Origin: Pectinatus haikarae
GTDB taxonomy: Bacteria > Bacillota > Negativicutes > Selenomonadales > Selenomonadaceae
Direction: 5' to 3'
Assembly (NCBI RefSeq): GCF_015732185.1
Contig: NZ_WIQM01000015.1
Coordinates: forward strand, 1-64,000
DNA length: 64,000 nucleotides
Below are positions 52,355 through 56,062 of the stretch, piece by piece (positions within the stretch are counted from its first letter, which is position 1; each line of letters opens with the position of its first letter). The notes below the pieces were generated by a model. It had not been told where the DNA came from and ran no database searches. It saw nothing but the letters and a program-made list of their open reading frames with translations. Both the position numbers and the translations under genes were made by a program.

Positions 52355-52564
52355 ATGAATTTTAATGTTTATAAATCAAATAATATCATGGGAATTGCCA
52401 ATATTTATCAAAATTGTAAAACAACGACGGAAATTCAGGCGGCAAATAAGAACTATTTTCTGAAAGAATGCAAAAAGCTTGATGCCTGAAGTGAAGATAA
52501 AAAATCAACGTTGAATGAAGAAACCAAGAATTTGGATAAACTAATCAAGGAGAAGATTGAATGA
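52355..52564 (+). pseudogene. small gene interrupted by in-frame TGA, ahead of rhuM
   Basis: A 69-codon frame from ATG 52355 is broken by TGA at 52487-52489 and resumes as SEDKKSTLNEETKNLDKLI to a TGA at 52562-52564 that overlaps the rhuM start. Without the break it would encode a short, Lys/Glu-rich protein translationally coupled to rhuM. I recognise no family. It may also be a 44-residue gene followed by unrelated sequence. Confidence 0.5.
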
Positions 52565-53571
52565 TGAGTGGAAAGCATCAACCAGCCCAAGGAGAAATCC
52601 TGATTTATCAGACGGAGCTCGGAGATACTAAAGTTGATGTGTATCTCAATCAGGATACGATATGGATGAGCCGGGTGAACATAGCAAGACTTTATGCCAC
52701 GACGCCGCAAAATATTTCCATGCATATAAAAAACATCTATCATGATAATGAATTGAAACAAGAGGGAACTAGTAAGGATCACTTACTAGTTCAATCAGAG
52801 GGAACACGTGATGTTTCACGGCGAACAAAATTCTATAATCTTGATATGATTCTGGCTATCGGCTATCGGATACGTTCCTCTGTTGGTATTCAGTTTCGCA
52901 ATTGGACGAGTAATATTCTCAAGGAATATATGAAAAAAGGGTTTGTCATGAATGATGAACGGTTGAAAGATCCGCAAAAGTTCGGACAAGATTATTTTGA
53001 TGAATTACTCGAACGGATTCGTGATATCCGGGCATCAGAAAAGCGTTTCTATCAAAAGGTACGAGATATCTATGCACTATCTGTGGATTATAATCCGTCT
53101 CTAGCGATAACCAAAGACTTTTTTGCATCGGTTCAAAATAAGATGCTATATGCCGTAACAGGAAAGACGGCTGCTGAAATCATTATGGAACGTGCTAATG
53201 CGCATAAGGATAACATGGGCCTGACTTCCTTCAAGGGAGCAAAAGTTCGTAAAGCAGATGTCGTGATCGCAAAAAATTATTTGCAAAAGGACGAATTTGA
53301 AGATTTGAATCGCATTGTAACGATGTTTCTGGATCATGCAGAGGATCTTGCTCGTCATGGTCAGGTGATGACTATGCAGGATTGGGCCGTCAGCGTCAAT
53401 GAATTCTTGACTTTCCGTCATCGGAAAATTTTGCAGGACAAGGGAATTATATCGCATGAAGCTATGGAGTGTAAGGCTTTAGAAGAGTATGCAATCTATC
53501 ATGTCCGACAGCTGCAGCTGCCGGAGAATGAAGATATTAACTTATCAGATTTACCGAAGAAAAAACAGTAA
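52561..53571 (+). CDS. rhuM: RhuM-family protein
   Basis: 336 residues matching the virulence RhuM family in order and sequence: ILIYQTELGDTKVDVYL, TIWMSRVNIARLYATTPQNI, FYNLDMILAIGYRIRS, and the long C-terminal DYFDELLERIRDIRASEKRF...TAAEIIMERA part. RhuM proteins travel with type I restriction systems, islands and prophages; one is linked to Salmonella virulence in worms, and the biochemical role is unknown. It has ATG ATG at 52561/52564 behind an AAGGAG site. It is flanked by a broken gene and an IS256 remnant, so recent acquisition is likely. Confidence 0.85.
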   Translation: MMSGKHQPAQGEILIYQTELGDTKVDVYLNQDTIWMSRVNIARLYATTPQNISMHIKNIYHDNELKQEGTSKDHLLVQSEGTRDVSRRTKFYNLDMILAIGYRIRSSVGIQFRNWTSNILKEYMKKGFVMNDERLKDPQKFGQDYFDELLERIRDIRASEKRFYQKVRDIYALSVDYNPSLAITKDFFASVQNKMLYAVTGKTAAEIIMERANAHKDNMGLTSFKGAKVRKADVVIAKNYLQKDEFEDLNRIVTMFLDHAEDLARHGQVMTMQDWAVSVNEFLTFRHRKILQDKGIISHEAMECKALEEYAIYHVRQLQLPENEDINLSDLPKKKQ

Positions 53572-54509: not shown

Positions 54510-54827
54510 CTTTGTCTCCCGTCCGCCATAGTCATCATGATGCTTTTTAATTCTTGCTGCTGTATATACCAATTATTTTCTGCAATTTTATACTCTATTT
54601 TACAGCAATAACTGCTTCTGTGCCATAATCATCACCCATTATCTTTTTATATCTGCAAACGTATAACTGTAATTTATCACTAATGTCTTTGTGATAAGAT
54701 CCTAATTTTTTGATAAAGTCTTCTCTCTATTGACATTTTTTTTGCCATATGCAACAATGTCGATGTAGAATTTATTATGTTGATTTATTAAAATCCATAA
54801 ACTAATATAATAGATCTATTATTGTCT
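54510..54827. other. ecfA1 / riboswitch divergent region
   Basis: No gene seen. It contains a short inverted repeat ttatcac/gtgataa near 54676-54699 and A/T-rich sequence with a possible -10 TATAAT near 54805 for the riboswitch transcript. Confidence 0.4.
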
Positions 54828-55000
54828 AAGGAACAGGTGTCAGCGACTTAATAGAGAATCCGGGAAAAATAAACCGGAGCTGTCCCGCAGCTGTGATGCG
54901 GAGTAACCTGCAGGGACCATTGAGGTATTAACCTTGAGAAGGTGCAGGACGCAATGAAGCAAAGCCAGAAGAACTGCCTGTTCATCAGTCACCATACCGT
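54828..55000 (+). ncRNA. cobalamin riboswitch
   Basis: In order: GGTGTCAGC, GAATCCGG, CTGTCCCGCAGCTGTGATG and the B12 box AAAGCCAGAAGAACTGCC (54961-54978), with GTCACC closing the outer stem against GGTG. These are the conserved blocks of the adenosylcobalamin riboswitch. The nearest gene downstream, 50 bases on, encodes a lactate/malate dehydrogenase-family enzyme, not a cobalamin gene. Regulation is probably at translation, as no terminator follows. Confidence 0.9.
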
Positions 55001-55049
55001 AAATTTATGTATGCGGTACACCTACGAGTGATAGGGAGGAGAATTTTCT

Positions 55050-56006
55050 ATGATTAACAAGGGTAAAATCGTGATCATCGGTGCCAGTAATGTCGGTTCG
55101 GCAATACTGAATAAAATAACCGATTTTCAGTTGGCGTCCGAAATAGTCCTGCTGGACATAAACGCCGACAAAGCAAAAGGTGAGGCGCTCGACGCCAGCC
55201 ACGCCACTTCGTGCATATACAGCACGAATATCAATGTGCATGCAGGCACCTATTCCGACTGCAGGGATGCCGGTATAATAATTATTACCGCAGGTCCCAG
55301 TATCAGACCCGGTGAAACACCCGATCGTTTAATATTGGCAAAAACCAACATCAAAATAATGAACAGCATTATGACCGAAATAACCAAATATACCAAGGAT
55401 GCTATGATAATCGCGATAACGAATCCTCTCGATGTGGCAACGTACTATATTTCCACTCATTTTGATTACCCGCGCGAGAAAATAGTCGGCACCGGAACAA
55501 TGCTGGAAACATTTCGTTTCAGACGCATTCTGGCGGATCATTACCACGTCGACCCCAAAAACATTCACGGTTATATTCTCGGAGAGCACGGCAATTCTGC
55601 TTTCACGGCATGGAGCACTGTTAATATAGCAGGTATGCCTCTTGAACATCTCGATGAGTGTTTCAATTTTTCTCAAAAGATAAACCGACAGGCAATTGAG
55701 GATGAAATCGTTCAGGTTGCCTATGATATAATAAATCTAAAAGGCTGGACCAATACCGGCATAGCCATGGTAGCCTGCCGCTTCATAAAGTCCATCCTAT
55801 ATGACGAACACACTATTTTGCCCATGTCAGCGGTTTTTGAGGGAGAGTACGGACTGCGTGACATTGCTCTGAGTATCCCTCGCATGCTTTGTGCGGAGGG
55901 GGTTGTAAAATCGTTTGAAGTAAAGCTGACCGAGACTGAACAAAATTTACTGTTCAGTTCTGCTGCCAGTGTAAAAAATGCTTTATCCTGCTGCAAAAAC
56001 CTGTAA
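55050..56006 (+). CDS. L-2-hydroxyacid dehydrogenase of the lactate/malate family (HicDH-like), cobalamin-riboswitch controlled
   Basis: 318 residues: NAD-binding GASNVGSA with Asp36 for NAD, ITNPLDV, and catalytic His180 in GEHGNSAF. The substrate loop AGPSIRPGETPDRL has Ile85 where lactate dehydrogenase has Gln and malate dehydrogenase Arg, and its Arg is shifted as in L-2-hydroxyisocaproate dehydrogenase. The GEHGNSAFTAWST block also recalls that enzyme. Glu153 replaces the usual Asp of the His-Asp pair (LETFRFR against LDTARFR). The substrate may be malate, a bulkier 2-hydroxyacid or something else. Ribosome site GGGAGGAG precedes ATG 55050. Confidence 0.85.
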   Translation: MINKGKIVIIGASNVGSAILNKITDFQLASEIVLLDINADKAKGEALDASHATSCIYSTNINVHAGTYSDCRDAGIIIITAGPSIRPGETPDRLILAKTNIKIMNSIMTEITKYTKDAMIIAITNPLDVATYYISTHFDYPREKIVGTGTMLETFRFRRILADHYHVDPKNIHGYILGEHGNSAFTAWSTVNIAGMPLEHLDECFNFSQKINRQAIEDEIVQVAYDIINLKGWTNTGIAMVACRFIKSILYDEHTILPMSAVFEGEYGLRDIALSIPRMLCAEGVVKSFEVKLTETEQNLLFSSAASVKNALSCCKNL

Positions 56007-56032: not shown

Positions 56033-56062
56033 TACGCCTTATACTTTTGTATAAGGCGTTAT
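56033..56062 (+). terminator. hairpin terminator downstream of the dehydrogenase
   Basis: acgccttata / tataaggcgt around a short loop, then tattaattt; the T tract is weak. Confidence 0.55.

Follow-up and report, generated by a model that had tools for sequence, protein, structure and literature searches.

The locus and its gene

The window, that is, the whole 64 kb stretch of DNA that was analysed, carries a gene for an L-lactate dehydrogenase (LDH) behind a cobalamin (B12) riboswitch. The features of the locus are the following:

54730..54758, + strand: possible promoter, TTGACA, 17 nt and a TG-extended AACAAT (10 of 12 matches, TG before the second hexamer)
54818..54995, + strand: cobalamin riboswitch aptamer, RF00174 (covariance model and covariation)
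54831..54838, + strand: 5' arm of P1, GAACAGGT, with its partner GCCTGTTC at 54976-54983
54883..54887, + strand: L5 loop UCCCG, the kissing-loop partner, equal to the published L5 consensus
54963..54978, + strand: B12 box AGCCAGAAGAACTGCC, the same in the four intact Pectinatus LDH leaders
54995..55018, + strand: accessory hairpin TACCG/CGGTA between aptamer and P13 (3 of 5 pairs changed on both sides)
55021..55035, + strand: P13 stem CCTA/TAGG with L13 loop CGAGTGA, the presumed switch hairpin
55033..55041, + strand: Shine-Dalgarno AGGGAGGAG, overlapping the 3' strand of P13
55050..56006, + strand: NAD-dependent L-lactate dehydrogenase, 318 aa, ATG start (TIGR01771; nearest solved structures 7nay and 8q3c)
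56034..56059, + strand: terminator-like hairpin 3' of LDH

The riboswitch is the sole above-threshold cmscan match in the 64 kb of the window. It scores 95.4 bits (gathering score 31.5 bits; E 1.7e-22), covers the model in full length (1-189) and ends 54 nt before the LDH start. An earlier sequence-only reading had proposed a complete B12 riboswitch with a clear B12 box, which this covariance-model check bears out. It had also placed the feature at 54828-56006. The end agrees with ours, while the start falls 10 nt within the Rfam match. The lone lactate/malate-family dehydrogenase of that reading is likewise confirmed as a single-gene unit whose product passes an L-LDH model. Upstream lies a divergent ECF-transporter ATPase. 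Downstream, the terminator-like hairpin is followed by the suf operon (read by eye). A RhuM-like ORF, recognised by eye only, lies near the locus at 52561-53571 of the window.

The protein passes the NCBIfam L-LDH equivalog TIGR01771 with 359.3 bits (cut-off 303.55) and stays below the cut-off of every malate dehydrogenase model listed. With the narrower L-LDH model NF000824 it reaches 296.8, below the cut-off of 339. NF000824 is a subfamily model; therefore, the failure speaks against that subfamily and not against an LDH. The motifs GEHGN and LETFRFR line up with those of solved LDHs, with glutamate instead of aspartate in the LDT motif. We take GEHG to hold the catalytic histidine and L-D/E-T-x-RFR the substrate arginine.

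The specificity loop differs from the usual form. It reads SIRPGETPDRL against NQKPGxTRL, with isoleucine for glutamine and two more residues; the two ordinary LDHs of the alignment have glutamine at this position. The solved protein 7nay, which matches the window LDH with 502.5 bits over residues 2-313, has the same extended loop PSIRPGETPDRL and a LET-type motif. Both nearest solved proteins, 7nay and 8q3c, were deposited as L-lactate dehydrogenase, and their source organism is presumably Selenomonas ruminantium. Because TIGR01771 was passed and 7nay has the same loop, we name the gene LDH, noting the departure at glutamine. At the position of the isoleucine, 8q3c has arginine, and this seems to be an engineered change in the direction of malate dehydrogenase. 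Elsewhere in the window genome, a separate protein passes two malate dehydrogenase models, and a lactate permease is present.

The riboswitch and its expression platform

In the four intact Pectinatus LDH leaders, seven of the eight P1 pairs show no variation at all. The B12 box has CAGAAG, compared with CAGGAG in most other riboswitches; the CAGAAG form is common to these four leaders and some other Pectinatus leaders. The L5 loop is exactly the UCCCG of the published consensus (PMC10653944), and the CGAG of L13 pairs to it only through a mismatch. P13 consists of four pairs only and is invariant among the four LDH leaders, so it has no covariation support there. L5, L13, P13 and the Shine-Dalgarno are all invariant across the four, and AGGGAGGAG is also unchanged in a decayed leader of P. 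cerevisiiphilus (see below). The spacing from GGAGG to the ATG is 10 nt. The AU-rich hairpin at 54995-55018 was considered as P13 and dropped: similar inserts occur in other leaders, and the conserved hairpin is CCTACGAGTGATAGG.

No terminator-like hairpin was found between the aptamer and the LDH start codon. For three of the four Pectinatus LDH leaders, a loose terminator rule picked out irregular hairpins within the coding sequence of LDH, and these were left out of the terminator count. Translational repression by B12 is the most likely mode of control suggested by this anatomy, because the 3' strand of P13 leads into and overlaps the Shine-Dalgarno. The ensembles predicted for the leader, folded with the aptamer or without it, did not separate and showed no clean two-state switch. 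The Shine-Dalgarno region was predicted to be largely or partly paired in either case. Therefore, the sign of the switch rests on anatomy and on studied relatives.

The promoter scan of the region found 7 sites where 7.0 were expected, a number that by itself gives no support for a promoter. All six LDH copies of Pectinatus have a TTGACA-based site 202-308 nt 5' of their ATG.

The hairpin read as P13 belongs to a wider family motif. We compared 53 riboswitch leaders, which come from the window genome, the LDH loci and family f1 among the matches listed. Three of them (L006, L177 and L182) have no B12 box by pattern and were left out. In 48 of the 50 leaders with a B12 box, the motif CCYRCGA-N-YRGG, read as P13 plus L13, stands 3' of the aptamer; the pattern is missing in L178 and L179, and the rest include the near-copies L002/L003 and L017/L155. 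Counted as non-LDH were 44 leaders with P13, the Propionispira LDH leaders L017 and L155 among them. The script found no terminator in two of these (L158 and L170), and L170 shows one by eye.

The purine-rich 3' strand of P13 pairs with the 5' arms of these terminators at a mean of -9.5 kcal/mol, against -7.2 kcal/mol for shuffled arms. Individually, the pairing falls below 0.05 in 10 of 42 leaders and in none of the six tested switches of the window genome. The signal is modest. It suggests that, in terminator-type switches, the strand may form the 5' side of an antiterminator, which would resemble that of Priestia megaterium metE (PMC10653944). In the LDH leader, that strand is the Shine-Dalgarno region.

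Conservation of the pair in Pectinatus

Five Pectinatus genomes were compared: the window genome (3.11 Mb, 17 contigs), P. frisingensis, P. cerevisiiphilus, P. brassicae and the genome G004. The three species names were assigned through identical sequences. The LDHs of the other four are 87-90% identical to that of the window. Together the five genomes hold six LDH copies. The riboswitch is intact before four of them, decayed to a relic before one, and missing before one. It stands 51-53 nt 5' of LDH in P. frisingensis, G004 and one copy of P. brassicae (C40).

The relic is that of P. cerevisiiphilus. Its L5 segment is gone, the CG of L13 is altered, and the Shine-Dalgarno is retained; L5 and the L13 CG were thus lost together. 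This leader gives no Rfam cobalamin match at E up to 10. Between LDH and suf, the same genome has an intact cobalamin riboswitch (L015 2750-2928) and a btuC-like transport operon.

The two LDH copies of P. brassicae share 89% and 88% identity with the window LDH. One copy, at another place, has the intact riboswitch, and the other, in the suf context (C8), is without one. From their leaders, the two copies would form a natural pair, one regulated and one unregulated. A relic seen by eye before the second copy was rejected, since a short-word BLAST against two intact leaders gave a best E of 0.077, which is not significant.

When the four intact leaders were aligned to the structure, 95.8% of the cells pair. 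Seven of the 36 pairs changed on both sides, in an alignment of four sequences only and with a structure that was named after these had been looked at. Shuffles gave 2.3 such pairs, and one shuffle of 500 gave as many. The signal disappears when the partners are slid. On the other hand, further pair types numbered 10 versus 10.5 in shuffles and were not above control (one of five measures). The both-sides changes fall in the P6 region and the accessory hairpin; P1, P2, P4 and P13 hardly vary.

Recurrence in Propionispira and origin of the riboswitches

Propionispira arboris and P. raffinosivorans, both named through identical sequences, have an orthologous LDH, 74% identical, also behind a cobalamin riboswitch (110.7 bits each). 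In both searched species it is the first gene of an operon LDH-mutA-mutB-meaB, and mutA follows after 35 nt; in P. arboris the operon genes were also confirmed by Pfam. LDH and a B12-dependent methylmalonyl-CoA mutase consequently share one B12 signal, since they form one operon behind the riboswitch. This leader has terminator-like hairpins between riboswitch and LDH. Around the operon, a btuFCD-like transporter, TonB-system genes and TonB receptors were recognised by eye.

Among the best matches in other genera, none of 31 distinct LDH loci has a cobalamin riboswitch before the gene. These loci (L018-L028, L200-L218, L070 and L077) are 32 in number and were counted as 31 because L077 and L203 are identical; each has at least 1.49 kb upstream, except L201 (61 nt). 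The more distant LDH paralogs (L029-L041, L045, L046, L063 and L081-L085) are also without one. A survey of related genomes, as the first reading had suggested, thus finds the pair in four of six Pectinatus copies and in two Propionispira species, and not at the best-matching loci of the other genera.

The LDH tree of 30 proteins recovers the six Pectinatus sequences as a single group and the two from Propionispira as a second, with no resolved branching between these groups. The aptamer tree holds 48 distinct sequences, with the identical rows L003 and L155 collapsed. There, the Pectinatus LDH aptamers group at 99.5/100 and join four other Pectinatus riboswitches at 99.7/99. The aptamer of the Propionispira LDH groups at 93.2/98 with two riboswitches from its own B12 cluster. 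A tree constrained to hold all LDH aptamers in one group is 26.9 log units worse, and the AU test does not reject it (p 0.18). Two recruitments of the riboswitch, one in each genus, are therefore favoured, not proved: the best tree separates the aptamers, but the AU p is 0.18. A single recruitment followed by gene conversion is possible.

Of the four relatives of the Pectinatus LDH aptamers, L158 precedes a TonB receptor, and L164 precedes a large protein with a TonB-receptor-like part (by eye). In P. frisingensis, a riboswitch of the LDH-nearest subfamily (G002:C32:45342-45519) lies upstream of ORFs that by eye are GH25-like, lactonase-like and glucose-6-phosphate dehydrogenase-like.

The aptamer groupings, with other Pectinatus riboswitches in one genus and with neighbours in the B12 cluster in the other, would fit a riboswitch that was captured by chance beside LDH, with little physiological meaning, and that is now being lost; the two Pectinatus copies without an intact riboswitch agree with such a loss. 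We consider this unlikely. The four leaders keep their structure through both-sides changes, with L5, L13, P13 and the Shine-Dalgarno invariant, and LDH stands behind a B12 riboswitch in two genera.

The methylmalonyl-CoA mutases

Pectinatus are anaerobic, beer-spoiling, propionate-forming Negativicutes. The window genome has two methylmalonyl-CoA mutases. One of them (550 aa plus a separate B12 domain), which has no riboswitch, belongs to an mmd cluster whose further genes resemble those for a CoA transferase, MeaB, an epimerase and a decarboxylase. The second, mutAB-meaB, stands behind its own terminator-type B12 riboswitch (G000:C1:138185-138364). The sequence-only reading had assumed a propionate former with a B12-dependent mutase. 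The mmd cluster fits this, but the simple picture is complicated by the second mutase, which has a B12 riboswitch itself. Because a B12-dependent mutase is also under a B12 riboswitch, the regulon does not consist simply of B12-free substitutes.

A riboswitch upstream of mutA was seen by eye in at least 16 of 34 homologs, including all five Pectinatus and at least 11 of 29 others; in P. arboris, which is part of this count, LDH lies between the riboswitch and mutA. The mutAB-meaB mutase is apparently a B12 enzyme repressed by B12, perhaps a backup mutase for low B12. Scarcity of B12 probably raises both this mutase and LDH, because mutAB-meaB has a riboswitch and the mutA switch of Veillonella parvula represses. 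The window genome also has a homolog of CbiD, a marker of de novo B12 synthesis.

In Xylanibacter ruminicola, by contrast, none of four predicted B12 riboswitches is near propionate genes, and the authors consider control mainly post-translational (PMC11575231). Cobalt-poor diets were reported to raise rumen succinate (PMC7601760).

Proposed mechanism

We propose, with a modest preference over its negation, that the B12 riboswitch represses the translation of LDH and that at low B12 this enzyme serves as a substitute electron sink. The full aptamer with L5 UCCCG precedes the gene and is followed by the hairpin read as P13, with the loop CGAGUGA. By analogy with studied relatives, bound adenosylcobalamin would let L5 and L13 kiss and so stabilise P13. 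Stable P13, whose UAGG overlaps AGGGAGGAG, would hide the ribosome site and turn LDH off. The standard repressing part of terminator-type switches would then be reused in the LDH leader as the ribosome site. When B12 is short, P13 would open and LDH would be made. Under these conditions the mutase of the succinate-propionate route would lack its cofactor, and the propionate route would stall there. Pyruvate and NADH could be disposed of as lactate, whose formation re-oxidises NADH. LDH and the second mutase mutAB-meaB would together make up a response to low B12. In Propionispira they stand in a single operon, which suggests that its cells answer low B12 with more mutase and more LDH together.

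Previous works support parts of this scheme. The kissing loop stabilises P13, and translational members of the class then hide the ribosome site (PMC10653944). In a panel where repression itself was the criterion of function, 38 of 86 reporters were repressed with corrinoid and called functional, V. parvula mutA among them (PMC9600662). Nevertheless, mechanisms vary even among Negativicutes, because of two Sporomusa ovata switches one lies outside the P13 model and the other follows it in part only (PMC10653944). The possibility raised in the first reading, that B12 turns the gene off, gains from the leader anatomy, which argues for repression. The decayed or missing riboswitch of two Pectinatus copies and its absence from the 31 loci of other genera speak against the scheme.

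The enzyme could have another place in the same metabolism. It might serve the succinate-propionate route itself, as a malate dehydrogenase-like or other 2-oxoacid reductase that is raised with mutAB at low B12. LDH clusters with mutAB-meaB in Propionispira, its loop has isoleucine for glutamine and is two residues longer, and the NF000824 cut-off was missed. However, the proteins of the window and of P. arboris both pass TIGR01771 and fail all malate dehydrogenase models, a separate protein of the window genome passes two of these models, and L-lactate dehydrogenase is the deposited name of the nearest solved proteins, one of which shares the loop. Such a role appears improbable.

The sign of the switch could also be the opposite. 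B12 would then turn LDH on, and lactate would be oxidised to feed propionate when the mutase works. Lactate is a plausible substrate, given the permease in the genome, and an activating corrinoid riboswitch exists at cobT of A. halodurans (PMC10653944). There, however, P13 is an antiterminator that has bases in common with the terminator (PMC10653944), so activation of this type misfits the LDH leader, where no terminator was found before the start codon and P13 overlaps the ribosome site. Moreover, all 38 working switches of the reporter panel repressed, with repression as the criterion (PMC9600662). We regard an activating sign as very unlikely.

Equally hard to credit is that LDH reduces another 2-oxo acid rising at low B12, for detoxification and not as an electron sink: 2-oxobutyrate, for example, is tied to propionyl-CoA or methionine metabolism, the specificity loop is unusual and the Propionispira LDH stands beside methylmalonyl-CoA mutase, but the protein matches a deposited L-lactate dehydrogenase strongly (502.5 bits, residues 2-313).

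Comparison with known systems and meaning

Cobalamin riboswitches are known on genes for B12 synthesis and for transport, such as btuB, on mutA, and on B12-free isozymes. LDH is not a mutase, a reductase or a methionine synthase, and it does not take over the same reaction in the way that metE does. It could work as a B12-independent isozyme at the level of the pathway only.

The mutA switch of V. parvula (Kennedy et al. 2022, PMC9600662) is of the same riboswitch class and from the same bacterial class as the LDH switch. It represses in a B. subtilis reporter (PMC9600662), and mutA is the mutase gene that adjoins LDH in Propionispira. Two things differ. A terminator is predicted for 37 of the 38 functional switches of that study, as against none found in the LDH leader, and the target here is a dehydrogenase and not a B12 gene.

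The metE switch of Priestia megaterium (Procknow et al. 2023, PMC10653944) shares with the LDH leader the L5 UCCCG and a P13 whose 3' strand is the switching strand, here by prediction, and represses a gene needed when B12 is scarce. However, metE replaces the MetH reaction, whereas LDH, if our reading is right, replaces the electron-disposal role of the pathway and not the mutase. In addition, the metE switch is transcriptional and the LDH switch probably translational. Translation is blocked in E. coli btuB and env8HyCbl by a kissing loop that stabilises P13 (PMC10653944). These belong to other lineages and have other targets; in the LDH leader the ribosome site comes directly after P13 and overlaps it.

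A predicted B12 riboswitch upstream of mutA was also described in another propionate former, Propionibacterium freudenreichii (PMC5644110). This bacterium belongs to a different phylum, and the targets named in the available part of the paper are cbiL, cbiB and mutA, with no LDH among them. The LDH of 7nay, presumably from Selenomonas ruminantium, resembles that of the window in the loop PSIRPGETPDRL and by its 502.5 bits. By contrast, orthologs in other genera of the family show no B12 riboswitch at the 31 distinct loci scanned.

In the open-licence literature, as covered by titles and abstract beginnings among the matches listed, no B12 riboswitch at an LDH gene was found. Likewise, the available parts of five papers that combine riboswitch and lactate-dehydrogenase terms (PMC5644110, PMC5756557, PMC11494915, PMC6239172 and PMC6167967) do not describe the pairing. 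The riboswitch class and the enzyme family are known. The pairing, the probable reuse of the repressing strand as ribosome site, and the recurrence in a mutase operon would make up a form of B12 control that was not found in this literature.

More tentatively, and short of a conclusion that we would defend as probable, B12 could act as a product selector in propionate-forming Negativicutes. Low B12 would raise the second mutase and a dedicated LDH and shift the products from propionate to lactate, with LDH recruited separately in each genus, through its own translational riboswitch in Pectinatus and through a place ahead of mutAB-meaB in Propionispira. The vitamin supply may thus decide whether Pectinatus disposes of electrons as propionate or as lactate. 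If true, this would be a riboswitch choosing between fermentation end products and not between isozymes. A fermentative dehydrogenase under such a switch would give the vitamin a direct hold on which main product a fermenter makes. The choice between propionate and lactate matters in beer spoilage by Pectinatus, and it would be relevant to rumen and gut fermentation if related bacteria behave alike.

Other cobalamin riboswitches of the window genome

The window genome has eight cobalamin riboswitches. Their targets, named by eye except for the mutase, are mutAB-meaB, a PepSY-like protein, a cbiK-like gene, two TonB-receptor-like genes and LDH; the remaining two are a gene-less copy and an orphan. 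A terminator-like hairpin follows each of the seven non-LDH switches (six by script and the orphan, L006, by eye).

Two of these switches, G000:C3:126745-126919 and G000:C3:129949-130123, have identical aptamers 3 kb apart. One stands before a PepSY-type membrane protein, and the second has no gene of at least 100 aa for about 490 nt. With their identical aptamers, the two would be a recent duplication.

The orphan lies at G000:C4:327496-327686 on the minus strand, with 98.3 bits and terminator-like hairpins, and has no downstream gene of its own of at least 100 aa. It faces the 3' end of an acetolactate synthase-like gene that lies on the opposite strand, and a second terminator-like hairpin stands between the two. 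This orphan is possibly a small RNA or a relic.
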